Shown: piece after piece, positions 1 to 62,017 of the stretch
Layout of the letters: each line of letters starts with the position of its first letter
Position numbering within the stretch: position 1 is the stretch's first letter
NCBI RefSeq assembly: GCF_901447155.2
Contig: NZ_LR588415.1
Location: forward strand, 44,885-108,884
Source of the DNA: Peptoniphilus catoniae
GTDB taxonomy: Bacteria; Bacillota; Clostridia; Tissierellales; Peptoniphilaceae
DNA length: 64,000 bases
Direction of reading: 5' to 3'
Notes under the pieces: model-generated
The model's input: only the letters and a program-made list of their open reading frames with translations
Database searches by the model: none
Told to the model about the DNA's origin: nothing
Position numbers and translations under genes: made by a program

Positions 1-7
1 GAAACAA

Positions 8-1147
8 ATGGATTTCGGATTTAACGAAGAATATAAAATGATACAAAAGATCTACAGAGACTTTGCAGAAAAAGAAATAAAACCACTAGCAGAAGAAATA
101 GACGAAGAAGAAAGATTTCCAAGAGAAAGCGTAGAAAAGATGGCAGAACAAGGAATGCTTGGAATACCATGGCCAGAAGAATACGAAGGAGAAGAAGGAG
201 ACTACCTAACCTACGTAATAGCAGTAGAAGAACTATCAAAAGTATGCGCATCAACAGGAGTAACCCTATCAGCCCACACATCACTAGGCTCAGCACCAAT
301 CTATGACTGGGGAACAGAAGAACAAAAACAAAAATACCTAACAAAACTAGCAAGCGGAGAATGCCTAGGAGCCTTTGGCCTAACAGAACCAAACGCAGGA
401 ACAGACGCATCAAGACAAAGAACAACAGCAGTAAAAGACGGAGACCATTACATTCTAAACGGCACAAAGAACTTCATAACCAACGCAGGCGAAGCAGGAA
501 TCTACGTAGTAATGGCAATGACAGACAAAGAAAAAGGCAACCACGGCATATCATCCTTCATAGTAGAAAAAGACTTCGAAGGCTTTAAGATAGGAAAACA
601 CGAAAAGAAGATGGGCATAAGAGGCTCAGCAACAGCAGAACTAATCTTCGACAACTGTAAAGTACCAGCAGAAAACCTACTAGGCAAAGAAGGCGAAGGC
701 TTTAAGATAGCGCTACACACCCTAGACGGAGGAAGAATAGGAATAGCAGCCCAAGCAATAGGCATAGCCCAAGGAGCCCTAGCAGTAGCAGTAGACTACG
801 TAAAACAAAGAGAACAATTCGGCAAGACCCTATCAAGCTTCCAAAACACCCAATTCGTAATAGCAGACCTAGCAAACAAAATAGAAGCAGCAAGACTATT
901 AGTATACAAAGCAGCATGGTTAAAAGACAACAAACAACCCTACTCAGTAGCATCAGCCCATGCAAAACTAAACGCAGCAGAAACAGCAATGTATGTAACA
1001 ACAAAATGCGTACAACTACTAGGAGGATACGGCTACACAAGAGAATATCCACTAGAAAGAATGATGAGAGACGCAAAGATAACAGAAATATACGAAGGAA
1101 CATCAGAAGTACAAAGAATGGTTATCTCAAGATCAATTCTTAGATAA
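8..1147 (+). CDS. Acyl-CoA dehydrogenase, copy 1 of a near-identical pair
   Basis: This 379-residue protein is a full-length FAD-dependent acyl-CoA dehydrogenase. The N-terminal helical domain, the middle beta domain ([13 protein letters not shown], about 120-132) and the C-terminal helical domain are all present. The catalytic base is Glu363 in IYEGTSEVQ. It would oxidise acyl-CoA, or in reverse reduce enoyl-CoA, exchanging electrons with the EtfBA encoded downstream; the substrate cannot be told from sequence. I find only two differences, both synonymous, from the copy at 7467-8606 (c289 versus t7748, c1126 versus t8585). Codon use is extreme: Leu is almost always CTA, and codons mostly end in A, or in C for Tyr, Asn, Asp and Phe. 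The window opens 7 bases before the ATG, so the ribosome site and promoter are out of view. A transporter gene follows after 93 bases. Confidence 0.95.
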
Positions 1148-1240
1148 AATATTTTAATCTAAAGAAGGTGAAGCGTTATCACCATAAATTTGAATTTATT
1201 TTAATAAATAAATTATATAAATTAAAAAAGGAGGATTAAA

Positions 1241-2674
1241 ATGAACGAAGAAATTAATGCTAAGGTAAAGGAAGAAGAGCTTACTGAAGCCGAAAGAGTT
1301 GAGAGAGATCTTAGTGAAAAAGTAGGTATTCAAGTTGACTACAGTACACTAACAACAGCTAACTTTTTAAAGGCACTTATATTTTCAGGCATAGGGGTTT
1401 TCATGTTCTTTATACCATGTCTTACAGGCTCCAAGGGGGAATCTATAGTACCTATGGTTTACCTTGTAAATGGCGCTAAGACAGCTGCTGCAGGAATACT
1501 TAACCACTTGGTAATGATTGTATGTATAGGACTTTCTATTACTTATACTTATGGTAAAATTAACAAAAACTCTTATTTTGGAAAATTCCACGAAAAAGAC
1601 GGAGTTTTTACTGGTATTTTATACTATTTGGCAGCAATATTCTCTACAATGCTTGTATTCCAAGTAGGACCCGAACAAATTGTAAATCCTGATGTAGGAG
1701 GACTTGCAATCAGTCTTGCAGGATCAACACTATTTACAGTAACAATAGCAGGCTGGTTAGTAACATTTTTAATTGAATTCGGTATTCTTGAATTTATAGG
1801 AACACTTATTGAGCCTATTATGCGTAGAGTATTCTTACTGCCCGGACAATCAGCAGTAGATGCGCTTTCATCATTCGTAGCTGCTCCAGCTGTAGGTGTA
1901 TTTATTACAAACAAACTTTACAATGAATGCGTTTATACTGAAAAAGAAGCTTGCTGTATAATGACAAACTTCAGTGTTGTATCCCTTGGATTCTTTGCAC
2001 TTTTAGTATCAATTACAGATACTCAAGAAATGTATGGAGCTGCAGTACTTACATCACTTCTTACAGTATTTATTCTGGCGATTATAGTTATTAGAATTCC
2101 ACCCCTATCAAAGAAAAAAGAACAATATAAAAATGGGGTTATGCAAACAGCAGCAATGAAAAAGCCAGGCAAATATGATTCAAAAATATTTAAGAGAGCT
2201 GTAGCAGCCGCAACAACAAAAGCTTCAGGAACTCAATATAGTGTATTCCTAACAGCTTTTGAAGATGTATTTTCATTTGCTCTTAAAGTAGTTGCTTTCG
2301 TACAAGCACTTACAGTTCTTTCAATGTTAATCAGTACTTACACTCCTGTATTTGAATGGATAGGTAAGCCAATGGTTCCATATCTAAACTTAATGGGACT
2401 TGAAAATGTTAATGATATAGCACCTGCAACTCTAGTAGGTATATCTGAAATTGCCCTACCGGTAATGACTATAGCAGGAAAGGCAATAGCACCTGCAAGT
2501 ATATTCTTTGTAATAGTTCTTTCAACTGTACAAATTATATTCTTCACAGAAAGTGCCAACGCTATGTTACAATCTGATGCGGGACTAAAAGTCGGCGAAT
2601 TAGTTTTAATATTTTTAATTAGAACAATTATCGCGGTTCCAATCGTAGCATTCTTTGCAAAGATGTTATATTGA
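1241..2674 (+). CDS. YjiH-type nucleoside-recognition-domain membrane transporter, paralogue 1
   Basis: A 477-residue integral membrane protein with a charged cytoplasmic N-terminus (about 50 residues) and roughly nine to ten hydrophobic segments. It resembles the YjiH family with nucleoside-recognition (Gate) domains, including the repeated polar-Gly pattern TVTIAGWLVTFL and the conserved end APASIFFVIVLSTVQIIFF. Family substrates are poorly defined, so import of an organic acid or amino-acid derivative for the neighbouring acyl-CoA enzymes is inference. An AAGGAGG site at 1228-1234 sets the start. It lies 93 bases after acd copy 1 with no convincing terminator between, so the two are probably co-transcribed. 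A diverged paralogue follows the second acd copy at 8845. Confidence 0.8.
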   Translation: MNEEINAKVKEEELTEAERVERDLSEKVGIQVDYSTLTTANFLKALIFSGIGVFMFFIPCLTGSKGESIVPMVYLVNGAKTAAAGILNHLVMIVCIGLSITYTYGKINKNSYFGKFHEKDGVFTGILYYLAAIFSTMLVFQVGPEQIVNPDVGGLAISLAGSTLFTVTIAGWLVTFLIEFGILEFIGTLIEPIMRRVFLLPGQSAVDALSSFVAAPAVGVFITNKLYNECVYTEKEACCIMTNFSVVSLGFFALLVSITDTQEMYGAAVLTSLLTVFILAIIVIRIPPLSKKKEQYKNGVMQTAAMKKPGKYDSKIFKRAVAAATTKASGTQYSVFLTAFEDVFSFALKVVAFVQALTVLSMLISTYTPVFEWIGKPMVPYLNLMGLENVNDIAPATLVGISEIALPVMTIAGKAIAPASIFFVIVLSTVQIIFFTESANAMLQSDAGLKVGELVLIFLIRTIIAVPIVAFFAKMLY

Positions 2675-2706
2675 CGCTAGATTAGTAAAATAAAAATGTA
2701 AAAAAA

Positions 2707-2746
2707 GTCATAGAATAACATGGTAATCGCCATGTTATTTTATGAC
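2707..2746. other. Long intercistronic hairpin without a U-tract on the + strand
   Basis: A 17-bp stem (2707-2723 with 2730-2746, a single G-U pair) closes a 6-base loop. Six A residues precede it and no T-run follows on the + strand, so it is not a normal terminator for the transporter. It could protect an mRNA end or be a processing site. On the minus strand it would have the form of a terminator, but no minus-strand gene is near. Confidence 0.6.
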
Positions 2747-2781
2747 TCATAAAACAATAGTAAGATAAGGAGGAAAAAGAT

Positions 2782-3972
2782 ATGAACAAAGCTTTGGAAG
2801 GCGTTAAGGTTTTAGACTTTACCAATGTTTTGGCAGGACCTTTTTGCACAATGAATCTTGCCGATTTCGGAGCCGAAGTTATAAAAATAGAAAGACCCGG
2901 AACCGGAGACGGCAGCAGAATTTTCGGACCTTTTGTAGAAAAACAAAGCGGTTATTACATATTTGCCAACAGAGGTAAAAGAGGTATAACCCTTGACCTT
3001 AAGAATCAAAAGGCTAAAGAAATAATATATGAACTTGTTAAAAAAGTTGATGTTGTAGTTGAAAACTTTAAACCAGGTGTTATGGAAAAATTAGGTTTTT
3101 CCTATGAAGACTTTAAAAAGTTAAATCCGGGACTTGTTTACTGTTCAATATCAGGATTTGGACAAGTCAGCCCTCACAGAGATTTACCTTCATATGATAT
3201 AGTAGCACAAGGTAGAGCCGGAATGATGAGCATTACAGGTTACCCCGATAATCCGCCTGCAAGAGTTGGAAGTTCTTTAGGTGATGTAAGTGCAGGACTA
3301 TATGGTGCTTTCGGTATTATGCTTGCCCTATATCATAAGGAAAAAACAGGAGAAGGACAACTTGTAGACGTGGCTCTAATGGATTCAGTATTTGCTTTTA
3401 TTGAAACCAACATAGTAAGACACACAATAGGAAAGATTTTGCCTAAGAGAGTTGGAGCAAGACACCCTCTAAGTGCACCTTTCGATATTTATAAATGTAA
3501 AGACGGTCAATATGTAATAATAGCAGTTGCAAGTAATCCTCATTTTAATGCTCTTTGCGATTTAATTGGAAGACCTGATCTACCTAAGAATCCTAAATTT
3601 GATGAAGATTGGCACCGTTCAGACAATGATGTTGAACTTAAGGCTATTATTGAAGACTTCTTAAAGGATTATACTTTAGATGAAGCTGTAAAACTTTTTG
3701 AAGAACATTCAATTCCATGCGGACCTATATTTACTGTAGAACAAGCTTGTAAAGATGAAAGTATTTTAGCAAGAAAGATGCTAGTTGATATAGATCAACC
3801 TGAAGCAGGAAAACTTACAATTACAGGTAACCCTGTAAAGCTATCACAAACACCACCGGATCCTGAACATCCGGCACCTTTACTAGGTCAAGACACAAGA
3901 GAAGTTTTAAAGGAATACCTAGGTTACTCAGACGAGGAGCTTGACAAATTAAAGGAAGAAAAAGTTTACTAA
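2782..3972 (+). CDS. CaiB/BaiF (class III) CoA-transferase
   Basis: The 396-residue protein has the formyl-CoA-transferase/CaiB fold: the N-terminal signature VLDFTNVLAGPFCTMNLADFGAEVIKIE, the conserved ENFKPGVMEKLGF, and catalytic Asp168 in SSLGDVSAGL, which aligns with Asp169 of the family. Class III enzymes move CoA between an acyl-CoA and a free carboxylate without ATP. The neighbours (two acyl-CoA dehydrogenase types, EtfBA) suggest it activates the imported acid and releases the product acid. CaiB (carnitine), FldA (aryl-lactate) and formyl-CoA transferases are all in this family; no neighbour decides between them. AAGGAGG lies 7 bases before the ATG. Confidence 0.9.
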   Translation: MNKALEGVKVLDFTNVLAGPFCTMNLADFGAEVIKIERPGTGDGSRIFGPFVEKQSGYYIFANRGKRGITLDLKNQKAKEIIYELVKKVDVVVENFKPGVMEKLGFSYEDFKKLNPGLVYCSISGFGQVSPHRDLPSYDIVAQGRAGMMSITGYPDNPPARVGSSLGDVSAGLYGAFGIMLALYHKEKTGEGQLVDVALMDSVFAFIETNIVRHTIGKILPKRVGARHPLSAPFDIYKCKDGQYVIIAVASNPHFNALCDLIGRPDLPKNPKFDEDWHRSDNDVELKAIIEDFLKDYTLDEAVKLFEEHSIPCGPIFTVEQACKDESILARKMLVDIDQPEAGKLTITGNPVKLSQTPPDPEHPAPLLGQDTREVLKEYLGYSDEELDKLKEEKVY

Positions 3973-3985
3973 AATTTATGAAAAT

Positions 3986-4014
3986 TTGATTTTCCAGGAA
4001 CATGTTATTATAAT
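3986..4014 (+). promoter_or_regulatory. Sigma-A-type promoter for the acd gene at 4072
   Basis: TTGATT (3986-3991), a 17-base spacer and TATAAT (4009-4014) lie 58 bases before the next start codon, giving that gene and etfBA their own start point. Confidence 0.55.
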
Positions 4015-4071
4015 GGAAAAGTCTAATATAAATATTTAGCATATAGAATTGAAAAATAAAAGGAGGATATA

Positions 4072-5217
4072 ATGAATTTTAAGTACACTGATGACCAAAT
4101 TGAAATAAGACGTATGGTTAGAGATTGGGCACAAGGATATTTAGCACCTAAGGCTGCTGAAATTGACGAAACTAATGAATTCCCAATGGACAACGTAAAG
4201 GCACTAATGGAACAAGACCTTATGGGTATTGCATATCCTGAAGAGCTAGGCGGCGGCGGAGCTGACGCTATATCTGAAGCAATTGCTATGGAAGAAGTAA
4301 CAGCAGCTTGTGCAGCAACAGGTTCAATTATGACTGGACACTATCTAGGATTTGACTCTCTTTACCTACAAGGTACTGACGAACAAAAGGAAAGATGGTT
4401 AAGACCTGCTCTTGAAGGAGAAAAACTAGCAGCTTTCTGTTTAACTGAACCTGCAGGAGGATCAGACCCCACAGCTACAAGAACTACAGCTACAGAAGAT
4501 GGAGATTGCTACGTACTAAACGGTGTTAAGCACTTTATTACAAGTGGTGCATATGCAGACTTCCTATCAGTATTTGCTATGACTGACCGTTCAAAGGGCA
4601 GAGACGGATTAACTTGCTTTATAGTAGAAAAAGGAACTCCAGGTATGAAGATAGGTGCTGGAGACGACAAGATGGGTATTAGAGGAGCAAGAACTCACGA
4701 AATTATTTTTGAAGACTGTAGAGTTCCAAAGGAAAACATTGTTGGTGAAATCGGAAAAGGATATCGTCTAGCACTTGACGTAATAGACAGAGGTCGTATC
4801 GGTATAGCTGCAATGTGTGTAGGTTTATCACAAGCAGCATTTGATGCAGCAGTAAAATATTCTAAGGAAAGAGAAGTATTCGGACGTCCTATTTCTAAAT
4901 TCCAAGGTATTAGCTGGATGATCGCAGACATGGGAACTCAACTTGAAGCTATGAGAATGCTTACTTACTATGCAGCAGACCTTAAGGAACAAGGAGTTAA
5001 CTTCTCTAAGGTTGCTTCAATGGCTAAGCTTTTCGGCGCAGAAGCATCTCACAAGATTGTAACTACTGCACTTCAAATTCATGGCGGATATGGATACATG
5101 AAAGAATATCCAATTGAAAGAATGTACAGAGACCAAAGAATCCTTGAACTATTCGAAGGTACTTCACAAATTCAAAGAATAGTAATTGCCGGACAAATTT
5201 TAAGAGAAGCTAAGTAA
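4072..5217 (+). CDS. Acyl-CoA dehydrogenase, second type
   Basis: A complete 381-residue acyl-CoA dehydrogenase, clearly different from the twin copies on either side. It has FCLTEPAGGSDPTATRT in the FAD/substrate region, a beta domain, and catalytic Glu362 in LFEGTSQIQ. It probably exchanges electrons with EtfBA, encoded 116 bases downstream. Codon use is ordinary for the window (CTT, GTT and CGT occur), unlike the twin copies. Three acyl-CoA dehydrogenase genes within 9 kb suggest two successive reactions or two substrates rather than one beta-oxidation step. No thiolase, hydratase or hydroxyacyl-CoA dehydrogenase is present in the window. AAGGAGG precedes the ATG. Confidence 0.95.
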   Translation: MNFKYTDDQIEIRRMVRDWAQGYLAPKAAEIDETNEFPMDNVKALMEQDLMGIAYPEELGGGGADAISEAIAMEEVTAACAATGSIMTGHYLGFDSLYLQGTDEQKERWLRPALEGEKLAAFCLTEPAGGSDPTATRTTATEDGDCYVLNGVKHFITSGAYADFLSVFAMTDRSKGRDGLTCFIVEKGTPGMKIGAGDDKMGIRGARTHEIIFEDCRVPKENIVGEIGKGYRLALDVIDRGRIGIAAMCVGLSQAAFDAAVKYSKEREVFGRPISKFQGISWMIADMGTQLEAMRMLTYYAADLKEQGVNFSKVASMAKLFGAEASHKIVTTALQIHGGYGYMKEYPIERMYRDQRILELFEGTSQIQRIVIAGQILREAK

Positions 5218-5248
5218 GAAAATAAAATAATATAATATAAGATTTTTG

Positions 5249-5292
5249 TTTTAAAGCAAGACAAAGTGAAAAAACCAAGTCTTGCTTTAAAA
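5249..5292 (+). other. Intercistronic hairpin before etfB
   Basis: Perfect 14-bp inverted repeat (5249-5262 with 5279-5292) around a 16-base A-rich loop. No T-run follows. It sits between acd and etfB and could be a stability or processing element in one transcript, like the hairpin at 2707. Confidence 0.55.
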
Positions 5293-5333
5293 TTGCAAAA
5301 TCAAATAAAATATAAAATAAGGAGAGATCAAGT

Positions 5334-6107
5334 ATGAATATAATGGTTTGTATAAAACAAGTACTTGATAATGCAATTGTACCTACAGTAGATCAAGAAA
5401 AGAAATGCGTTATCAAAGACGGAGTAGAAACCATGGTAAGCCCATTTGATCAACATGCTATAGAAGCTGCTCTTCAACTAGTTGAAAAGCATGGCGGCGA
5501 AGTTAGCGTAATCACAGTGGGAGATGAATCATGTAAGTCAGCACTAAAAATCGGTTTAGCAATGGGTGCTGAACACGCTTATTTAATTCATGATGAAAAA
5601 ATAGGCGAACCTGATGCTCATGCAACAGCATATATATTAGCTAAGGCTATTAAGCACATTGGAGAATTTGACCTAGTTCTTTGCGGAAAACAAGCAATAG
5701 ATGCAGATGATGCTCAAGTAGGAGCTCAACTTGCAGAACAACTTGACATTCCACAAATTACATTTATAGAAGAAATAGTAGAAGTTGGAGAAGATAAAAT
5801 CACTTGTAAGAGAGTAAGCTCAGTAGCAGAAGAAGTTGTAGAATCAACAATGCCTGCTGTATTAACTTGCGAAAAATCTCTTAACGAACCAAGATACCCG
5901 ACCTTGAAGCGTACAAGAAAAGCTAACAAAATGGAAATTCCTGTATATGACTTAGCTACAATTGGTGCAGAAGATGTAGTACAGCCTACTTCAATAATTA
6001 AAATGTATCCACCTGCACCAAGAGAAGGCGGAGAAATTATAACAGGGGACGCTGAAGAAATTGCTGTAATAGCAGTTAAAAAGCTTGTTGAAGCTAAGAT
6101 TATTTAA
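5334..6107 (+). CDS. etfB: Electron transfer flavoprotein, beta subunit
   Basis: The 257-residue EtfB begins with the typical MNIMVCIKQV and carries CGKQAIDADDAQVG near residues 117-131, the nucleotide-binding loop, plus the acyl-CoA-dehydrogenase recognition region near 190-205 (PRYPTLKRTRKANK). EtfBA is the redox partner of acyl-CoA dehydrogenases. The AQVG form of the loop resembles that of electron-bifurcating EtfB proteins, which would let NADH drive enoyl-CoA reduction coupled to ferredoxin reduction; that is suggestive only. The etfA start lies 16 bases downstream, so the two are co-translated. Length is normal. Confidence 0.95.
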   Translation: MNIMVCIKQVLDNAIVPTVDQEKKCVIKDGVETMVSPFDQHAIEAALQLVEKHGGEVSVITVGDESCKSALKIGLAMGAEHAYLIHDEKIGEPDAHATAYILAKAIKHIGEFDLVLCGKQAIDADDAQVGAQLAEQLDIPQITFIEEIVEVGEDKITCKRVSSVAEEVVESTMPAVLTCEKSLNEPRYPTLKRTRKANKMEIPVYDLATIGAEDVVQPTSIIKMYPPAPREGGEIITGDAEEIAVIAVKKLVEAKII

Positions 6108-6123
6108 TAAAGGAGGAAAACCC

Positions 6124-7122
6124 ATGGCAGAAACAAAAGTATTAGTTTGTCTTGAACAAAATAGCGGTGCTATAAGCGGAGTCTCCTTTGAAATACTAAG
6201 CGAAGGCAGAAGACTTGCAGACAAACTTTCATTAGATTTAGGCGCTATCCTTATTGGTAGCGGAGTAGAAGAAGTTGCAAAAGAAGCTTTCAAATACGGA
6301 GCAGACAAGGTATTTGTATGTGACGATGAAAAATTAAAGGATTACAGAAGCGAAAGCTATGTTAAAGCATTAGATAAAGTTGTATCAGAGCAACAACCTG
6401 AAATTCTTCTTTTCCCTGCAACAAACAACGGAAAAGATTTAGCAGCAAGATTTGCAGCTAAAACAGGTACAGGATTAGCATCAGATTGCGTTGAAATTAA
6501 AATTGACGAATCCAACAACAATATGCTATGTACAAGACCTATGTATGGTGGAAACGTAATGGTTGAAATTGAATGTCCTGAAAAAAGACCTCAAATGGCA
6601 ACTATTAGACCTAACTCTATGGAAAGAACAGAATGCCAAAAAGAAGGCGAAGTAGTTAAGGTTGAAGTTGACTTTGCAGAAGAAGACATTCGTACAAAGG
6701 TTAAAGAAGTAATTGAAAAAGCAACAGGAGAAATTAGTCTTGCAGATGCAACTATTATAGTTTCAGGCGGTAGAGGACTTGGAGATGCAAGCGGATTCGA
6801 TTTAATAAGAGAATTTGCCGACACTTTAGGAGCAGCAGTAGGAGCATCAAGAGCAGCTGTAGATAACGGATGGATAGAGTATGAACACCAAGTAGGACAA
6901 ACAGGTAAAACTGTAAGCCCTAAGGTATACTTTGCTTGCGGTATCTCAGGAGCTTTACAACACCTTGCAGGTATGAAAACTTCAGATGTTATTGTTGCAA
7001 TAAACAAGGACGAAGAAGCTCCTATGATTTCAGTAGCAAACTACGGAATCGTTGGAGACCTTTATAAGGTTATTCCTGTAATGATTGAAGAATTTAAGAA
7101 GGTATTTGAAGAAAGAAAATAA
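6124..7122 (+). CDS. etfA: Electron transfer flavoprotein, alpha subunit
   Basis: EtfA of 332 residues. An N-terminal alpha/beta domain is followed by the C-terminal FAD-binding domain (SGGRGLGDASGF near 214, QVGQTGKTVSPK, YFACGISGALQH). The ATG at 6124 is chosen because AAAGGAGG at 6110-6116 lies just upstream; an in-frame ATG at 6085 sits inside etfB with no ribosome site. It forms the FAD-carrying heterodimer with EtfB and ends the unit, with a clear terminator at 7145. Residues near the FAD are intact. Confidence 0.95.
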   Translation: MAETKVLVCLEQNSGAISGVSFEILSEGRRLADKLSLDLGAILIGSGVEEVAKEAFKYGADKVFVCDDEKLKDYRSESYVKALDKVVSEQQPEILLFPATNNGKDLAARFAAKTGTGLASDCVEIKIDESNNNMLCTRPMYGGNVMVEIECPEKRPQMATIRPNSMERTECQKEGEVVKVEVDFAEEDIRTKVKEVIEKATGEISLADATIIVSGGRGLGDASGFDLIREFADTLGAAVGASRAAVDNGWIEYEHQVGQTGKTVSPKVYFACGISGALQHLAGMKTSDVIVAINKDEEAPMISVANYGIVGDLYKVIPVMIEEFKKVFEERK

Positions 7123-7144
7123 GCTTTTAAATTTAAGACAAGAA

Positions 7145-7170
7145 GTAGGCGAGAAATCGCCTGCTTTTTT
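7145..7170 (+). terminator. Rho-independent terminator after etfA
   Basis: 8-bp stem (7145-7152 with 7157-7164), GAAA loop, then six T residues. Confidence 0.9.
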
Positions 7171-7217
7171 ATTTATATAAGACTTAAAAATTTTTTTAAA
7201 TTTCTTTTAGCTTTTCT

Positions 7218-7426
7218 TATAATCCCTATAAAGGCGTAATTAACAAGGGGAAGGTTAATACAAAAAAGCATATAAAATCTATAAAAGAGCTTAAAAGATT
7301 AGGTCATATAGTAACAAATAAACTTTTCCGTCAAAAGTTGAAGGAATTATTAAAGGAATAGAGGCTTTTATCAAATTCAAGACTTTAAAGATAATTGTCG
7401 ATTTTTAGATGGACAATAAATATAAT
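7218..7426 (+). promoter_or_regulatory. Candidate promoters in the 344-base gap before acd copy 2
   Basis: The gap 7123-7466 holds the etfA terminator and then A/T-rich DNA with no credible gene. TATAAT occurs at 7218-7223 (17 bases after TTTAAA) and at 7421-7426 (weak TTGTCG upstream, 20-base spacing). The second would give a leader of about 35 bases, the first one of about 240. Which is used cannot be decided from sequence. Confidence 0.4.
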
Positions 7427-7466
7427 CTCACTTAACAAAATACCAAAATTTGAAAGGGGAAAACAA

Positions 7467-8606
7467 ATGGATTTCGGATTTAACGAAGAATATAAAATGA
7501 TACAAAAGATCTACAGAGACTTTGCAGAAAAAGAAATAAAACCACTAGCAGAAGAAATAGACGAAGAAGAAAGATTTCCAAGAGAAAGCGTAGAAAAGAT
7601 GGCAGAACAAGGAATGCTTGGAATACCATGGCCAGAAGAATACGAAGGAGAAGAAGGAGACTACCTAACCTACGTAATAGCAGTAGAAGAACTATCAAAA
7701 GTATGCGCATCAACAGGAGTAACCCTATCAGCCCACACATCACTAGGTTCAGCACCAATCTATGACTGGGGAACAGAAGAACAAAAACAAAAATACCTAA
7801 CAAAACTAGCAAGCGGAGAATGCCTAGGAGCCTTTGGCCTAACAGAACCAAACGCAGGAACAGACGCATCAAGACAAAGAACAACAGCAGTAAAAGACGG
7901 AGACCATTACATTCTAAACGGCACAAAGAACTTCATAACCAACGCAGGCGAAGCAGGAATCTACGTAGTAATGGCAATGACAGACAAAGAAAAAGGCAAC
8001 CACGGCATATCATCCTTCATAGTAGAAAAAGACTTCGAAGGCTTTAAGATAGGAAAACACGAAAAGAAGATGGGCATAAGAGGCTCAGCAACAGCAGAAC
8101 TAATCTTCGACAACTGTAAAGTACCAGCAGAAAACCTACTAGGCAAAGAAGGCGAAGGCTTTAAGATAGCGCTACACACCCTAGACGGAGGAAGAATAGG
8201 AATAGCAGCCCAAGCAATAGGCATAGCCCAAGGAGCCCTAGCAGTAGCAGTAGACTACGTAAAACAAAGAGAACAATTCGGCAAGACCCTATCAAGCTTC
8301 CAAAACACCCAATTCGTAATAGCAGACCTAGCAAACAAAATAGAAGCAGCAAGACTATTAGTATACAAAGCAGCATGGTTAAAAGACAACAAACAACCCT
8401 ACTCAGTAGCATCAGCCCATGCAAAACTAAACGCAGCAGAAACAGCAATGTATGTAACAACAAAATGCGTACAACTACTAGGAGGATACGGCTACACAAG
8501 AGAATATCCACTAGAAAGAATGATGAGAGACGCAAAGATAACAGAAATATACGAAGGAACATCAGAAGTACAAAGAATGGTTATTTCAAGATCAATTCTT
8601 AGATAA
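7467..8606 (+). CDS. Acyl-CoA dehydrogenase, copy 2 of a near-identical pair
   Basis: The 379-residue product is identical to that of 8-1147, with the same catalytic Glu363. The ATG at 7467 is preceded by AAAGGGGA and is the start shared by both copies; a longer frame from 7395 has no ribosome site. Nucleotide identity stops within a few bases of the start and stop codons: leaders and trailers are unrelated, so only the coding part is shared. Codon use is the same extreme A/C-ending pattern. Its own promoter region and terminator make it a separate unit. Two copies of one coding sequence under different control regions suggest high or conditional demand for the enzyme. Confidence 0.95.
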
Positions 8607-8617
8607 AAAGCAAATTT

Positions 8618-8655
8618 AATAAACGGTTTGCAGACTTATTTGCAAACCGTTTATT
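8618..8655 (+). terminator. Terminator-like hairpin after acd copy 2
   Basis: Perfect 15-bp stem (8618-8632 with 8641-8655) and 8-base loop. The following bases are only moderately T-rich, so termination may be partial. Beyond it, TATAAT at 8678-8683 (with TTGTTA at 8657) may be the promoter of the next gene. The leader 8684-8844 shows no other feature I recognise. Confidence 0.65.
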
Positions 8656-8844
8656 ATTGTTAAATAAAAAAACTAACTATAATAATTATTTGTTTTAGAA
8701 ATTTAAAAGAGGAAAATTTATTAAAAATATAATTAGACAAGATAAGGTCTAAGAATTTTTTATTTAATATACTTTATCCAATTAACAGACTCCATGAAAA
8801 CTAAAAGATAATTTTAATTATATGGCTGGAAAAGGGGGAAGATA

Positions 8845-10314
8845 ATGTCAGATAATGATTATTCTGTTGAGAGTAAATATTTAAAAAAAGAAGTGGAAGA
8901 TAATAACTTAATAGAGGAAGAATTAAGTGAAGAGGAGCGAATTGAAAAAGCCCTTTCAGAAAAAGTAGGAATTAAAGCTGATTATGACAGTATTAATAGC
9001 AAAAATATTCTGAAGTTTTTATTTTTTTCAGGAATAGGAGTATTTTTATTCTTTATACCTTGTCTTAAGTATGGTGATGAAACCGTTGTACCTATGGTAT
9101 TTCTGGTAAACTTTGCCACAGATGCTGTAGCCGGAATAAAAAACTATTTAACTATGATAGTGTGCATAACCCTTTCTATAACCTATAATATTTCAAAATT
9201 TTATAAAAAGGGTGAAATTTATAAGTTTCACCAAAAAGACGGTCCTATTACTGCAAGTCTATACTATTTGGCTGCCATATTTTCTTTTATGATTGTTTTT
9301 CAAGTGGGACCTAAACAAATACTTGATCCTGAAGTAGGAACAACTGCAATAAGCCTTGCAGGTAACACCATGTTTACAGTAACTATAGCAGGCTGGTTGG
9401 TAACATTTTTAACTGAGTTCGGCATTCTTGAATTTATAGGAACACTTATAGAACCTGTAATGCGTAGAGTCTTTAAACTGCCAGGGCAATCAGCTGTAAA
9501 TGCTCTTTCCGCCTTTGTAGCAGCACCGGCAGTTGGAGTTTTTATGACAAACAAGCTTTACCATGAAAATGTTTATACTGAAAAGGAAGCTGCAAGTATT
9601 ATGACAAGTTTTTCTTTAGTATCTCTAGGATTTTTCGCCCTACTTGTATCAATTACAAATACGCCCTATATGTATGGTAATGTAGCTCTTACATCTTTAG
9701 CTACAGCTTTTATTATTGCCGTTATTATGATAAGGATACCACCACTTTCAAGGAAGAAGGACGTTTATATGGACGGATTTGTTCAAACAGCCGCTATGAG
9801 AAAGGGTGGAAAATACACTAAAGATATTTTTAAAAAAGCTCTTGCAACAGCTACAACTAAGGCAAGAGATGCAGAGTATTCAGTACTTTTAACATCAATT
9901 AAAGAAGCCCTATCCTTTGCCTTAAAGATAGTGGCATTTGTACAAGTATTAACGGTTCTTTCAATGGTACTTAGTATATACACTCCGGTATTTGACATAA
10001 TTGGCAAGCCGATGGTACCTTATTTAAAGCTTGTAGGCATAGCAGATGCTGAGATCGTTGCACCTGCAACCTTAGTTGGTATAGCTGAAATTGCCTTGCC
10101 GGTAATGACTATAGCAGGAAAGGCAATAGCACCTGCAAGTATATTCTTTGTAGTTGTCCTTTCAACTGTACAAATTATATTTTTCTCAGAAAGTGCCAAT
10201 GCTATGTTGCAATCAGATGTAGGCCTTAGTTTTGGAGAGCTTGTAGTAATATTTTTAATTAGAACATTTATAGCTATTCCTATAGTTGCTTTAGTTGCAA
10301 ACTTTTTATATTAA
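8845..10314 (+). CDS. YjiH-type membrane transporter, paralogue 2
   Basis: A 489-residue paralogue of the protein at 1241-2674, with the same segment order and strong identity in the membrane core (TVTIAGWLVTFLTEFGILEF, VMRRVFKLPGQSAVNALSAF, ALPVMTIAGKAIAPASIFF). Its N-terminal cytoplasmic segment is longer and different. The pair has drifted visibly while the linked acd copies have not, so the module duplication is old and only acd has been homogenised. The substrate is unknown. The start follows AAAGGGGGAAG. The gene ends before a strong terminator. Confidence 0.8.
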   Translation: MSDNDYSVESKYLKKEVEDNNLIEEELSEEERIEKALSEKVGIKADYDSINSKNILKFLFFSGIGVFLFFIPCLKYGDETVVPMVFLVNFATDAVAGIKNYLTMIVCITLSITYNISKFYKKGEIYKFHQKDGPITASLYYLAAIFSFMIVFQVGPKQILDPEVGTTAISLAGNTMFTVTIAGWLVTFLTEFGILEFIGTLIEPVMRRVFKLPGQSAVNALSAFVAAPAVGVFMTNKLYHENVYTEKEAASIMTSFSLVSLGFFALLVSITNTPYMYGNVALTSLATAFIIAVIMIRIPPLSRKKDVYMDGFVQTAAMRKGGKYTKDIFKKALATATTKARDAEYSVLLTSIKEALSFALKIVAFVQVLTVLSMVLSIYTPVFDIIGKPMVPYLKLVGIADAEIVAPATLVGIAEIALPVMTIAGKAIAPASIFFVVVLSTVQIIFFSESANAMLQSDVGLSFGELVVIFLIRTFIAIPIVALVANFLY

Positions 10315-10383: not shown

Positions 10384-10411
10384 AAAAAAACAGGGCTTAT
10401 AAATCCCTGTT
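10384..10411 (-). terminator. Terminator of the sigma-54 regulator gene
   Basis: On the minus strand a 7-bp stem (10411-10405 with 10395-10389) is followed by a T7 run. The stem overlaps the stop codon of the regulator. Confidence 0.8.
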
Positions 10412-12191
10412 AGTTTAAGTTAAATCTATATAATTTTCTGTAAAGAGTTGAAAGGTTAATTCCTAACTTTTCAGATATAATTTTTTTGGACTTTGTAGTC
10501 TCTCCATAGGTAGTTAAAAGATTTGAAATAATATTTTTTTCAAACTCATCAGTCATATCCTGCAAGGTCATACCCTGTTTAAAATTTAAAGAAGAAGCTT
10601 TAGTGTAGGAAGGGTCCCTGTAGCTGTTAAAGGATGGCGGCAGATCCTTAGGACTTATGACTTTGTCTGTAGAAACATTAACCAAATATTCAATTACATT
10701 TTCAAGCTCCCTTACATTTCCCTTCCAGTAGGCGTTTTTAAAAATTTCCATTAGCTCATTTGAGAAAACCTTCTTATCCTTGCCAAGCATAATACAATAA
10801 TCTGAAAGCTTTGATTCTGCAATAAGTTTGATGTCTTCCTTTCTGTCCCTTAAAGGAGGAAGTTCAAGAGGAATTACATTAAGTCTGTAGTAAAGGTCCT
10901 CTCTAAATTCACCCGCAGCTACCATTTCTTCCAAATTTCTGTTTGTTGCACTAATAAGTCTGAAATCTACATTAATTACCCTTTTGCCTCCAAGTCTTAC
11001 AAAGTTTCCGTCTTGAAGAACTCTTAAAAGTTTAGGCTGAAGGCTTAGGGGCAAATCTCCTATTTCGTCTAGAAAGAGAGTACCTCCATTAGCAAGCTCA
11101 AGCCTACCGACCTTACCTGAAACCCTTGCTCCTGTAAAGGCACCTTCTTCATAGCCGAAAAGTTCACTTTCAAGAAGATTATCAGGGATAGAGGCGCAAT
11201 TTATTGAAATGTAGGAGTTGTACTTACGAGGAGAGTTTTTGTGAATGGATTTGGCGAAAAGCTCCTTACCCGTTCCACTTTCCCCTCTTATCATTACTGA
11301 AGAATCACCTTCTGCAACTTGTTTAGCAAGGTTAATTGTATTTCTAATTGCAGCCGAGTTTCCTAAAATATATTCAAAATTAACATTGTTTTGATCTTCT
11401 ATAATGTTATAGGCATTGATAAGCTCCTTAGAGTAACTGGAAACTTGAAAAATATAGGTTTGAACTTTTCCGTTGACGGAATTTTCTATAGTTCTTACTA
11501 TAAATTCATTTTTTTGGCTTATAGGTCTTCCTTTAATGTAGTAGATACTTTTTTTGTTTTTAGGGTTAAAGTTCTTAAAGATGTCAAAAATTGTAACCTC
11601 TTTAAGAACTCCGTCGCCTATGCCTAAAAGCTTTTGAATTTTGTTGTTGTAATTTATTATTTTAAAATCCGAATCAGCCAAAATTATTCCATAGTCCAAA
11701 GCATTTACTATATTTGAAAACTCTTCATTTCTAAGAGACAGATTATTAATAGTTGCCTCATAATTCAAGTTGCCTGCAAGGAGAAGACTAAGCTTTTTTA
11801 AAAACAAATCTATTTCCTTTTGATGAGAGTAAATATATTCTTTTTGCTCCTGATTAAAGGCTATTAAGCCTATAACACCTAAAGTTTCATTGTTCTTGGA
11901 TAAAATAGGATATCCTATAGTAGCCACCTCTTGGCATTGGTTGGAAGATTGACAGTTGTGACATCTTTGACTTATGCCCTTTTCAATTATAAGCTCCGGT
12001 TTTTTGTTTGTGAGTATATAACTGTAAGAACAATCCTTAGGCAGTTGCTCGCCGATTCGGTCCTTATAAAGACCTGTAGCAGCTATTCTGATTAAGTCAG
12101 TATTAATTATAGTTACATCAACAGATAGTATAGAGCTTATAGCATCTGCCACTTCTCTAACAGAATTTTTTATATTAATAAGTTCTTTCAT
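10410..12191 (-). CDS. Sigma-54-dependent activator with Cys-containing sensor, PAS, AAA+ and Fis domains
   Basis: The 593-residue protein has four parts. A GAF-like N-terminal sensor (about 1-140) carries a Cys cluster, CHNCQSSNQC, with Cys77, Cys80 and Cys86. A PAS domain spans about 155-260. The AAA+ sigma-54 activation domain (about 275-500) has Walker A GESGTGKE (303-310), GAFTGA (350-355) and Walker B LFLDEIG. A Fis-type helix-turn-helix ends the protein. The start at 12191 is preceded by AGGTG; an upstream in-frame ATG at 12236 lacks a ribosome site. It reads away from the cysteine-desulfidase-family gene, which has a canonical sigma-54 promoter, so that gene is the likely target. The three Cys could bind metal, an Fe-S cluster or a thiol; this is inference. 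Confidence 0.92.
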   Translation of the reverse strand: MKELINIKNSVREVADAISSILSVDVTIINTDLIRIAATGLYKDRIGEQLPKDCSYSYILTNKKPELIIEKGISQRCHNCQSSNQCQEVATIGYPILSKNNETLGVIGLIAFNQEQKEYIYSHQKEIDLFLKKLSLLLAGNLNYEATINNLSLRNEEFSNIVNALDYGIILADSDFKIINYNNKIQKLLGIGDGVLKEVTIFDIFKNFNPKNKKSIYYIKGRPISQKNEFIVRTIENSVNGKVQTYIFQVSSYSKELINAYNIIEDQNNVNFEYILGNSAAIRNTINLAKQVAEGDSSVMIRGESGTGKELFAKSIHKNSPRKYNSYISINCASIPDNLLESELFGYEEGAFTGARVSGKVGRLELANGGTLFLDEIGDLPLSLQPKLLRVLQDGNFVRLGGKRVINVDFRLISATNRNLEEMVAAGEFREDLYYRLNVIPLELPPLRDRKEDIKLIAESKLSDYCIMLGKDKKVFSNELMEIFKNAYWKGNVRELENVIEYLVNVSTDKVISPKDLPPSFNSYRDPSYTKASSLNFKQGMTLQDMTDEFEKNIISNLLTTYGETTKSKKIISEKLGINLSTLYRKLYRFNLN

Positions 12192-12221
12192 AGAATCACC
12201 TAGATAAATTTTACATAAAAG

Positions 12222-12284
12222 TTTGCATAAATGCAAATTTAATTATCATATTTGCAAATTTAATAAAAACAAAAATTTGCAAAT
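12222..12284. promoter_or_regulatory. Three palindromic upstream activator sites
   Basis: TTTGCATAAATGCAAA (12222-12237) and two copies of the perfect palindrome ATTTGCAAAT (12250-12259 and 12275-12284) lie 20-90 bases upstream of the -24/-12 promoter at 12306. The last two are 25 bases apart. Repeated dyads in this place fit enhancer sites for the divergent sigma-54 activator, and they also cover its own likely promoter region. Confidence 0.7.
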
Positions 12285-12305
12285 CCGAAAACTCTCTTTA
12301 AATAA

Positions 12306-12322
12306 TTGGCACAATAATTGCT
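12306..12322 (+). promoter_or_regulatory. Sigma-54 (-24/-12) promoter
   Basis: TTGGCACAATAATTGCT matches the TGGCAC-N5-TTGC consensus. The invariant GG (12308-12309) and GC (12320-12321) have the required 10 bases between them. It is 64 bases before the start codon at 12386. Confidence 0.9.
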
Positions 12323-12385
12323 TATATATAAAGTGTAAGTAAATTTAGGTAAAAATAATTTTAATATTTATAGAAGGAGTGGAGT

Positions 12386-13627
12386 ATGGATTACAAAGAA
12401 TTCTTAAGAGCGGAGTTAATACCTGCCTTCGGATGTACTGAGCCTATAGCTCTTGCTTATGCGGCAGCTAAGGCGAAGGAAGTTCTTGGAGAAGAACCGG
12501 ATGGAATTGTTGCAAATTTGTCAGGTAATATGATAAAAAATGCCAACTCAGTTAAGGTTCCGGGAACTGAAGGAAGAAAAGGAATAGAAATTTCGCTTGT
12601 AGCAGGTGCTTTTCTGGGAGATGCTGATAAAAAACTTGAAGTTTTAGCTAATATTGACAAGTCAAGACTTGAAGAATGTGACAAATTAATTGAGAAGGGG
12701 ATCTGCAAGGTAAACCATGTGCCGGGTATTGAATCTCTATATATAGATGTAAATCTTACTAAAGGAGATCAAAGCTCAAGAGTTGTTATAGAACATGATC
12801 ATACAAATATAATTCTTATTGAAAAGAATAAGGAAGTTATTTTTGAAAAGGATTCAAGTAAAGTTGAGGAATCTGAAGTTGAACTAAGCTTTGACAAAAT
12901 TTACGATTTTGCCAAAGAGGTTGACTACTCCGACATTAAAGAAATATTTGACCTTCAAATGGAATATAACTACGCTATTGCCAAGGAAGGTATAAAAAAT
13001 GATTGGGGAGCAAATATAGGCAGCATAATTTTGGAAAATGCAAAAGATAATGAAAGAGAAGAAATTGCAGCCTATGCCAGTGCAGGTTCAGATGCCAGAA
13101 TGAGCGGTTGTGAAATGCCTGTAGTAATTAATTCAGGTTCAGGCAACCAAGGTATTACAGTTGCAGTACCTATAATAGTTTACGCAAAGAATCACAAAAT
13201 AGAAGGGGACATCCTTTACAGATCCTTAATATTTGCAAATCTTATAGGCCTATATATCAAGCAAGGAATAGGAAAGCTTTCAGCTTACTGCGGAGTTGTA
13301 GCTGCAGCATCTGCATCAATGTGTGGAATAGCTATGCTTCAGGGAGAGGACAGACAAATTATTAAGGAAACACTTTCCAATGCTCTTGCAACTAATTCAG
13401 GTATGATTTGTGACGGAGCTAAACCTTCTTGTGCCATGAAAATAGCATCAAGCATAAGAAGTGCCTTTTTAGCATTGGATCAAGCTAAAAGTGGCAACTC
13501 TTTTAAAGCCGGAGACGGAATAGTAAAAGATGACATTGATAAAACAGTTAAAACTGTAGGAAATATTGCAAGATTTGGAATGCAGAAAACAGATGAGGTT
13601 ATTTTAGAGGAGATGCTTAATAACTAA
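12386..13627 (+). CDS. cyuA: L-cysteine desulfidase / serine dehydratase-alpha-like family (CyuA/YhaM)
   Basis: The 413-residue protein belongs to the UPF0597/CyuA family. Cys17 (AFGCTEP) and Cys302, Cys342 and Cys349 (YCGVV, ICDGAKPSC) match the conserved Cys of archaeal L-cysteine desulfidase, with the same 40- and 7-residue spacings, so a [4Fe-4S] cluster is likely. The family reaction is L-cysteine to pyruvate, ammonia and sulfide. A sigma-54 promoter and a divergent activator show inducible control, probably by the substrate. AAGGAGTG precedes the ATG. Action on serine or another beta-substituted amino acid cannot be excluded. The transporter genes downstream have their own promoter. Confidence 0.85.
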   Translation: MDYKEFLRAELIPAFGCTEPIALAYAAAKAKEVLGEEPDGIVANLSGNMIKNANSVKVPGTEGRKGIEISLVAGAFLGDADKKLEVLANIDKSRLEECDKLIEKGICKVNHVPGIESLYIDVNLTKGDQSSRVVIEHDHTNIILIEKNKEVIFEKDSSKVEESEVELSFDKIYDFAKEVDYSDIKEIFDLQMEYNYAIAKEGIKNDWGANIGSIILENAKDNEREEIAAYASAGSDARMSGCEMPVVINSGSGNQGITVAVPIIVYAKNHKIEGDILYRSLIFANLIGLYIKQGIGKLSAYCGVVAAASASMCGIAMLQGEDRQIIKETLSNALATNSGMICDGAKPSCAMKIASSIRSAFLALDQAKSGNSFKAGDGIVKDDIDKTVKTVGNIARFGMQKTDEVILEEMLNN

Positions 13628-60738: not shown

Positions 60739-60950
60739 TGACATCATCCTTCCTCATCAAATAGTATAATATATAAAGTTCTTAATTAGTATCATTCATT
60801 TTTAAATATTAGAATAAATTTATCTATAAGGGGAAATTATAAAATATCTTCTTATTTTTAAATAATATTTAAGCAAATGCTTATAGAAACACAATTAAGG
60901 GTATAATATAATACCACAATAAAGCAATAATTTTATAAGGAGGAAGAAAA

Positions 60951-61400
60951 ATGAAAATATTGGTGCCTATTGACGGATCAAAAATATCACAAAATGCAGT
61001 TAAGGCTGCAAAGGAAATAGGAGAAAAGTTCAAGGCTAAATTAATTGTACTTACAGTTATTCCCGAAACTACAATTTTTGAACAATTTCCTACCAATTTT
61101 CCCTATGCCCTTGAGGTAAGCAAGGCAAATACCGAACATGCTGAATATGTATTATCAGATATAGAAAAGGAAGTTTCAGACTATCCTTATGAAGTTGAAA
61201 CCTTTTATAAAAGCGGAAATCCTGCAAGTAAAATCGTAAAGTTTGCAGAGGAAGAAGGTGTAGATCTTATAGTAATGGGAAACAGAGGTCTGGGAGCTTT
61301 TTCAAGAACTTTATTGGGATCAGTATCATCAAAGGTAATTAATCAGTCTAAAATATCTGTATTAGTTGTTAAAAGCGATATTGAAAAGAAGGGCGAATGA
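60951..61400 (+). CDS. Universal stress protein, ATP-binding type, copy 1
   Basis: 149 residues, a single UspA domain starting MKILVPIDGSKISQNAVKAAKE. The motif GNRGLGAFSRTLLGS matches G-x2-G-x9-G-S, so it should bind ATP. These cytosolic proteins accumulate in stress or starvation; the exact role is unknown. AAGGAGGAAG precedes the ATG. TATAAT at 60902-60907 is a likely promoter. A close paralogue follows after 167 bases. Confidence 0.9.
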   Translation: MKILVPIDGSKISQNAVKAAKEIGEKFKAKLIVLTVIPETTIFEQFPTNFPYALEVSKANTEHAEYVLSDIEKEVSDYPYEVETFYKSGNPASKIVKFAEEEGVDLIVMGNRGLGAFSRTLLGSVSSKVINQSKISVLVVKSDIEKKGE

Positions 61401-61509: not shown

Positions 61510-61567
61510 GTAAATTAAAGGTTGGAGTTGTTTTTCATTAGGATGATAATTTAGGGAGGAAGAGAAA

Positions 61568-62017
61568 ATGAAAATTTTAGTACCTATTGACGGATCAAAA
61601 ATGATGAAGAAAACAATCGATGCTGCAAAAGAAATCGGAGAAAAGTTTCAAGCTGAGCTTACTTTACTGATGATTATACCTAGCGGTTCAACTTTTGACC
61701 AAATATCCTTTGAAGGAACAAATTATCCTTATACCAAGGAGCTGAAAAATGCAAATGAGGAGAACGCCAAACGTGTACTTTCTGAAGCTGAAAAGCAAAT
61801 GTCAGGCTACTCTCATGAATTTAAAACAGTATATTTAATGGGCAAAGCTTGGGAAAAAATAATCAACTATGCCGAAGAAGAAGGCATGGATATGATAGTA
61901 ATGGGTAATAGAGGTTTGGGAGCCTTTTCAAGAACTCTTTTAGGATCAGTATCATCTAAAGTAATTAACCATTCTCCTATAACTGTAGTTGTAGTAAAGG
62001 GAGAGCTTGAAAAATAA
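61568..62017 (+). CDS. Universal stress protein, ATP-binding type, copy 2
   Basis: 149 residues, paralogous to 60951-61400, with the same start (MKILVPIDGSK) and an identical GNRGLGAFSRTLLGSVSSKV stretch, hence the same ATP-binding motif. The central helices differ more. Tandem duplication is clear, and the two could form heterodimers. GGGAGGAAG lies before the ATG and a strong terminator follows. Confidence 0.9.
   Translation: MKILVPIDGSKMMKKTIDAAKEIGEKFQAELTLLMIIPSGSTFDQISFEGTNYPYTKELKNANEENAKRVLSEAEKQMSGYSHEFKTVYLMGKAWEKIINYAEEEGMDMIVMGNRGLGAFSRTLLGSVSSKVINHSPITVVVVKGELEK

Follow-up and report, generated by a model that had tools for sequence, protein, structure and literature searches.

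Two near-identical acyl-CoA dehydrogenase genes in Peptoniphilus catoniae point to an old duplication with recent gene conversion and carry a gene-specific codon pattern

The 64,000-nt stretch of the Peptoniphilus catoniae genome analysed here (the window, i.e. G000:C3:44885-108884 of an assembly of 1.73 Mb in 15 contigs) contains two copies of an acyl-CoA dehydrogenase gene, ACD1, both on the plus strand. Copy 1 (8-1147) occupies position 1, downstream of thl, as named by NCBIfam, and of two genes that from sequence and order we take to be crt and hbd, all three lying left of the window; copy 2 (7467-8606) occupies position 2, downstream of etfA. Each copy is 1,140 nt long and encodes the same 379 aa product. 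As an earlier note on this sequence had stated, and as was verified for both open reading frames (ORFs), they differ at two bases only, gene bases 282 and 1119 (window 289/7748 and 1126/8585), both silent third positions. Judged from sequence comparison, this pair most likely reflects an old duplication followed by recent gene conversion between the copies. That bacterial gene pairs can evolve in concert is already known; what is new here is a gene-specific codon pattern found in both copies.

The two copies lie in direct orientation with 6.3 kb between them. The sequence they share reaches 6 nt 5' of the ATG and 2 nt 3' of the stop codon, bearing out the earlier claim that homology ends within a few bases of the coding region, and conversion would end there because the flanks are non-homologous. 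Copy 2, like the whole window, is free of N, and its flanks are unique on both sides. For comparison we used three congeners with one ACD1 copy each, i.e. Peptoniphilus obesi ph1 (G001, the same as L050), G002 (one contig) and G003 (the same as L057, a metagenome-assembled genome (MAG) labelled Peptoniphilus sp.). The proportion of silent differences (pS) is 0.008 between the twins (synonymous divergence, dS, 0.01), against 0.64-0.69 to the three congeners, so that the comparison of within-genome with between-genome identity proposed in the earlier note speaks for homogenisation at synonymous sites. Between ACD1 of either the window or P. obesi and that of congeners, nucleotide identity is 80.7-81.9%, dS is 1.4-1.9 and 47-65% of fourfold sites differ, while G002 and G003 are closer to each other (dS 0.63). 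The same note had left the choice between gene conversion and selection for identity; the contrast in dS favours conversion, whereas strong selection for identity is unsupported because silent sites vary freely between species.

Grouping of each copy with its positional counterpart, named beforehand as the result that would speak against concerted evolution, was also examined, with P. obesi as the one position-2 orthologue. Forcing copy 2 together with its P. obesi counterpart at position 2 lowered the log-likelihood by 42 and was rejected (approximately unbiased (AU) test, p 7.7e-6). In the ACD1 tree, P. obesi groups with G002 and G003 (93/98), and the twin branch is too short for support; all rows violate the base-composition assumption, but this has no bearing on how large the contrast is. 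The trees of neighbouring genes disagree: the family III CoA-transferase CoAT3 and EtfB join the window with G002 and G003, EtfA joins it with P. obesi, and in ACD2, a different acyl-CoA dehydrogenase, P. obesi joins G002 and G003.

The age of the duplication is to be distinguished from that of the homogenisation: both positions occur across the genus, and both together in the window genome only. In G002 and G003, ACD1 stands at position 1 after hbd, GATE1-CoAT3-ACD2-EtfB-EtfA come next, and neither genome has a second copy of comparable similarity. The order ACD1-GATE-CoAT3-ACD2-EtfB-EtfA is also present in four of the six farther loci scanned (L051, L052, L053 and L055; not L056, nor L054, a 3.6-kb contig), and position 1 is therefore probably ancestral. 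In P. obesi the order is hbd-GATE1-CoAT3-ACD2-EtfB-EtfA-ACD1-GATE1'-GATE2-SdaA, i.e. ACD1 is at position 2 only, in a neighbourhood common to the window and P. obesi (in both, GATE2 comes after etfA-ACD1 and before an SdaA-like gene). The hbd-GATE1 spacer of P. obesi holds no credible ACD1 remnant (best tblastn E 2.6, best blastn E 0.20). When 12 spacers were compared in all 66 pairs with 200 shuffles each, four pairs exceeded z 3, i.e. the hbd-ACD1 (z 22) and ACD1-GATE1 (z 3.4) spacers of G002 and G003, the hbd-ACD1 spacers of the window and G002 (z 3.7, equalled by 1/200 shuffles), which lend weak support to position 1, and the GATE1'-GATE2 spacer of P. obesi with the ACD1-GATE1 spacer of G003 (z 4.4), a match between non-corresponding positions that was given no weight.

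Each ACD1 copy is followed by a gene for a YjiH-like membrane protein, i.e. GATE1 (YjiH/YlbJ-like, Pfam Gate, 1241-2674, plus strand) and GATE2 (8845-10314, plus strand). Their wide divergence, from which the earlier note had argued, is real (proteins 69.7% identical, dS 1.25) but makes a weak argument. GATE2 of the window has P. obesi GATE2 as its sister (97/100), and window GATE1 forms a weaker group with GATE1 and GATE1' of P. obesi (79/94), which makes GATE1 and GATE2 older paralogues. Since GATE1' groups with GATE1 and GATE2 is a separate paralogue common to both genomes, the divergence is a poor clock; the partner of the duplicated ACD1 was likely the closer GATE1', present in P. obesi and missing from the window. 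Of the earlier conclusion that this was not a recent block duplication, 'not recent' fits, whereas 'not a block' does not follow, as a block of ACD1 and GATE1 is possible.

GATE1 (L050:3624-5072) and GATE1' (11280-12704) of P. obesi are themselves a mosaic, with nucleotide identity of 58-63% near the 5' end and 93-97% in mid-gene. Silent identity by block (8/12, 7/23, 38/46, 38/40, 18/26, 30/36 and 7/8) is heterogeneous (permutation p 1e-5), which suggests conversion tracts in this region in P. obesi too. The longest-run test, applied to 21 pairs, is weak alone: it gave p 0.03 for this pair and p 0.009 for an unexpected one (G002 with GATE2 of the window), the remaining 19 falling short of significance.

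We propose that a short-chain (butyryl-CoA type) dehydrogenase gene would have been duplicated long ago from its place after hbd to the place after etfA, and that the transporter gene next to it was probably copied as well; a block of ACD1 and GATE1 may have been copied, with GATE1' lost later in the window lineage. Homologous recombination between the direct repeats would then have overwritten one ACD1 copy with the other, and we infer that this homogenisation was recent and took place in the window lineage. The donor copy cannot be named because relatives are mixed at both twin-difference sites (GGA/GGT/GGC and ATC/ATC/ATT). A likely benefit would be two differently controlled expression units for one abundant enzyme. 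An extreme, lineage-specific use of A and C at third positions has built up in ACD1, and conversion would keep the copies in step.

This codon pattern is pronounced: 88% of third positions in both twins are A or C (A.64, C.24, G.06, T.05-.06), compared with a mean share of.505 (SD.047, maximum.642) among 276 other ORFs (150 aa or longer) from a sample of 407,623 bases that, counting overlaps, covers roughly a quarter of the genome. The effective number of codons (ENC) of copy 1 is 27.3, against a mean of 42.0 and a minimum of 33.0 in the same ORFs. Neither EF-G, GroEL, GDH, thl, hbd, S7 nor S12 of the window genome has the A/C pattern (EF-G and the ribosomal proteins S7 and S12 presumably bear the right names, which were assigned from sequence), and its absence from EF-G, GroEL, GDH, S7 and S12 led us to reject ordinary translational optimisation as its cause. 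The ACD1 orthologues lack it as well (P. obesi has a third-position T share of.40). A foreign origin was rejected, as the next highest third-position A/C share among 79 homologous loci is 0.65; these loci include window copy 2, 40 of the 80 listed contig loci are not in the count, and L050 and L057 are counted via L009 and L010, the same places.

Silent third-position T common to G002 and G003 is retained at 8/58 sites in the window gene versus 41/61 in P. obesi, and T on which all three congeners agree has changed in the window gene at 3/50 first, 1/98 second and 34/43 third positions. At twofold and threefold sites there are 17 changes from T to C (7 unchanged), and at fourfold sites 11 from T to A and three from T to C; a single mutation type is rejected because transitions and transversions are mixed. 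Predicted mRNA folding of ACD1 is weak, with a mean of -13.2 kcal/mol per 120 nt against -20.5 +- 1.15 in 40 random recodings based on the codon usage of 13 window ORFs (z +6.3), and normal for three orthologues, ACD2 and thl (z -0.3 to +1.0). Permuting ACD1's own synonymous codons gives a nearly equal value (z 0.6), so that the weak folding stems from composition and not from the order of codons. Towards the gene start the bias is less marked, with G or T as the third base in 7 of the first 20 codons. CTA accounts for 23 of the 27 Leu codons, and choice remains at many others (GGA 20/GGC 15, AAA 21/AAG 9). The Leu tRNA genes (one UAG, two UAA, one CAA, one CAG and one GAG) give no reason for the CTA preference. 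Each end of contig C1 (C1:1-3200 and C1:482900-484647) has one of the two UAA genes, and the ends carry similar, inverted tRNA clusters with a 99.8% match over the last 419 nt; both ends also overlap contig C10 by 127 nt. The pattern may be due to extreme expression, to selection on mRNA structure or stability, or to some other cause. We tentatively suggest, with more doubt than confidence, that ACD1 was recoded to A or C at most silent positions in one lineage only, giving a weakly folded, U- and G-poor message, and that conversion would spread and preserve this recoding.

Several observations weigh against an old duplication with recent conversion. The only relative with a position-2 copy, P. 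obesi, has no position-1 copy, and there is no second genome with a homogenised pair. No significant similarity links the etfA-ACD1 spacer of the window with that of P. obesi, so that the positional orthology of position 2 rests on gene order. The species order within the genus is unsettled, as rpoB joins the window and P. obesi with only 59/25, and the longest-run test on the window's own GATE pair is not significant (p 0.26). Two equally scoring ACD1 matches were found in no genome but the window's among 149 relatives and 199 members of the order, two overlapping sets for which only matches above strict E-value limits are listed. ACD1 matched 97 of the former at E <= 1e-150, with at least two matches in six, and 92 of the latter at E <= 1e-158, where two matches also occurred in G096 (66 and 64% identity to the query) and G149 (69 and 68%, on one contig). 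This absence is weak evidence, since short-read assemblies can collapse near-identical pairs. As a separate observation, one Lachnospiraceae MAG (E15__bin317) has four ACD1 relatives on four contigs (L058, L060, L064 and L068) with 69-71% identity to the query, reflecting either family expansion or a mixed bin.

The assembly also calls for caution, as a scaffold join touches copy 1. A single N stands at G000:C3:44884, directly left of window base 1, and the first 227 nt of the window (1-227, plus strand) are duplicated exactly to the left of it, which reads as an unmerged scaffold overlap. This is the sole N in the bases sampled for codons (contigs C11-C15, outside the sample, consist entirely of N). 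Several contig ends have exact 127-nt overlaps in common, at repeats, which suggests short-read de Bruijn assembly, typically with k=127. Immediately left of the shared part, window base 1 and the flank on the hbd side both have G, but the base before copy 2 is A; contig and flank thus agree. Most simply, the duplicated 227 nt are read as a join within copy 1 whose overlap was left unmerged, and not as a third gene fragment. Because of the join and the 127-nt overlaps, the copy count, the exact number of differences and the number of 7.46-kb units (ACD1 to etfA) depend on the assembly, and the repeat graph would probably fit several units. Yet the copies have different flanks on the left as well as on the right, the N-free copy 2 differs from copy 1 by two bases, and the occupation of each position in independent relatives makes two copies credible, so we regard it as improbable that only one gene is real, or that tandem amplification or excision of this unit was misresolved.

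A fresh duplication, i.e. recent insertion of a copy of the coding sequence from position 1 between etfA and GATE2, separate from whatever event gave the P. obesi arrangement, would agree with the low dS between the twins and with position-2 spacers that are not detectably homologous to those of P. obesi. It would, however, require two independent insertions in one gap, and a fresh copy would be expected to bring along some flank, whereas the identity stops almost exactly at the coding region; we therefore hold it to be rather unlikely, albeit the more serious of the alternatives. Least probable is that selection on synonymous sites keeps the copies identical without any exchange. ACD1 is indeed the extreme codon-usage outlier of the sample, but orthologues at 92% protein identity lack the pattern and differ at about half or more of the shared fourfold sites, and the twins agree at nearly all sites even where codon choice remains.

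Two further contigs of the assembly, C7 and C8, have identical beginnings (C7:1-127 and C8:1-127) that contain the 5' end of a gene of the GTP_EFTU family, probably EF-Tu, the obvious gene with which to compare the codon usage of ACD1. The readable contigs contain no full EF-Tu gene, which suggests that duplicate tuf genes were collapsed.

As to function, ACD1 matches PF02771, PF02770 and PF00441 (N, M and C domains) above the cut-off and scores 541.6 bits, below the cut-off of 640, against the NCBIfam equivalog AcrC (acryloyl-CoA reductase). Its best PDB sequence match is 5OL2_C (E 6e-171), which we take to be the Clostridioides difficile Bcd-Etf complex and which implies neither duplication nor codon pattern. 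A 64% identical paralogue on contig C2 is followed by two ORFs that presumably encode EtfB and EtfA. The electron transfer flavoprotein (Etf) is the electron partner of such dehydrogenases, and from its context ACD1 probably acts, together with Etf, as the crotonyl/butyryl-type dehydrogenase in the thl-crt-hbd route.

Between GATE1 and copy 2 lie, all on the plus strand, CoAT3 (2782-3972), ACD2 (4072-5217, 46% identical to ACD1) and the genes for the Etf beta and alpha subunits, EtfB (5334-6107) and EtfA (6085-7122), the true start of the latter being probably downstream of the first TTG. The gap between etfA and copy 2 contains a consensus-matching terminator-like hairpin on the plus strand (7140-7169, L007:17140-17169), and copy 2 is directly followed by an inverted repeat of 16 pairs (8617-8656, L007:18617-18656) that scored as terminator-like on the minus strand. 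Copy 2 may therefore be a separate expression unit, albeit in a scan that was near chance overall (9 sites versus 6.4 expected). No sigma-54 sites were found in the spacers upstream of the twins, the totals being 11 versus 7.5 expected in L007 and, with two mismatches allowed, 29 versus 20.2 in the window (5/100 shuffles reached 29); none of the 38 matches of a sigma-70-type scan (32.4 expected) was relied on. A perfect sigma-54 -24/-12 match, TGGCACAATAATTGCT, lies at 12307-12322 between a PrdR/NtrC-type activator gene (10410-12236, minus strand) and the SdaA-like gene (12386-13627), where a sigma-54-controlled amino-acid catabolic unit is likely. Elsewhere in the window, a direct repeat pair of 138 nt (60948-61085 and 61565-61702, starts 617 nt apart) is 71% identical.

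Among the known systems considered here, the closest likeness is to tufA and tufB of Salmonella and other bacteria, two separate gene copies kept alike by exchange bounded by the gene (PMC5485169, PMC6053082). Unlike these, ACD1 encodes a fermentation enzyme, both copies occur in one genome only and the codon pattern is extreme and gene-specific. PMC6053082 describes long-lasting concerted evolution of prokaryotic protein genes as rare, with tuf, photosystem, ammonia-oxidation and Etf genes among the cases, and names etfA and etfB (printed 'eftA, eftB') in a set of 26 genes that show recurrent concerted evolution. ACD1 shares an enzyme system with these two, the difference being that here the dehydrogenase and not Etf is homogenised. 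The words dehydrogenase and acyl-CoA are absent from the main text of that paper, and our literature search for acyl- or butyryl-CoA dehydrogenase with gene conversion, duplication or concerted evolution found no such case. Recurrence in several lineages, which the same source uses as a stricter definition, was not seen across the 149 and 199 genomes. It also discusses dosage and gene balance and states that concerted evolution could rapidly spread optimised codon usage; the twin pair fits this expectation without proving it.

A dehydrogenase whose Etf partner is on the published list extends the idea that partners of a complex are kept in dosage balance. Moreover, the unusual codon usage makes it possible to test in nature whether the synonymous sites of one gene can be driven far beyond those of ribosomal genes, and whether conversion speeds this up. 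If the recoding is true, it would mean selection on the message itself, above that on the ribosomal and elongation-factor genes of the same genome, with tRNA genes not the obvious cause.

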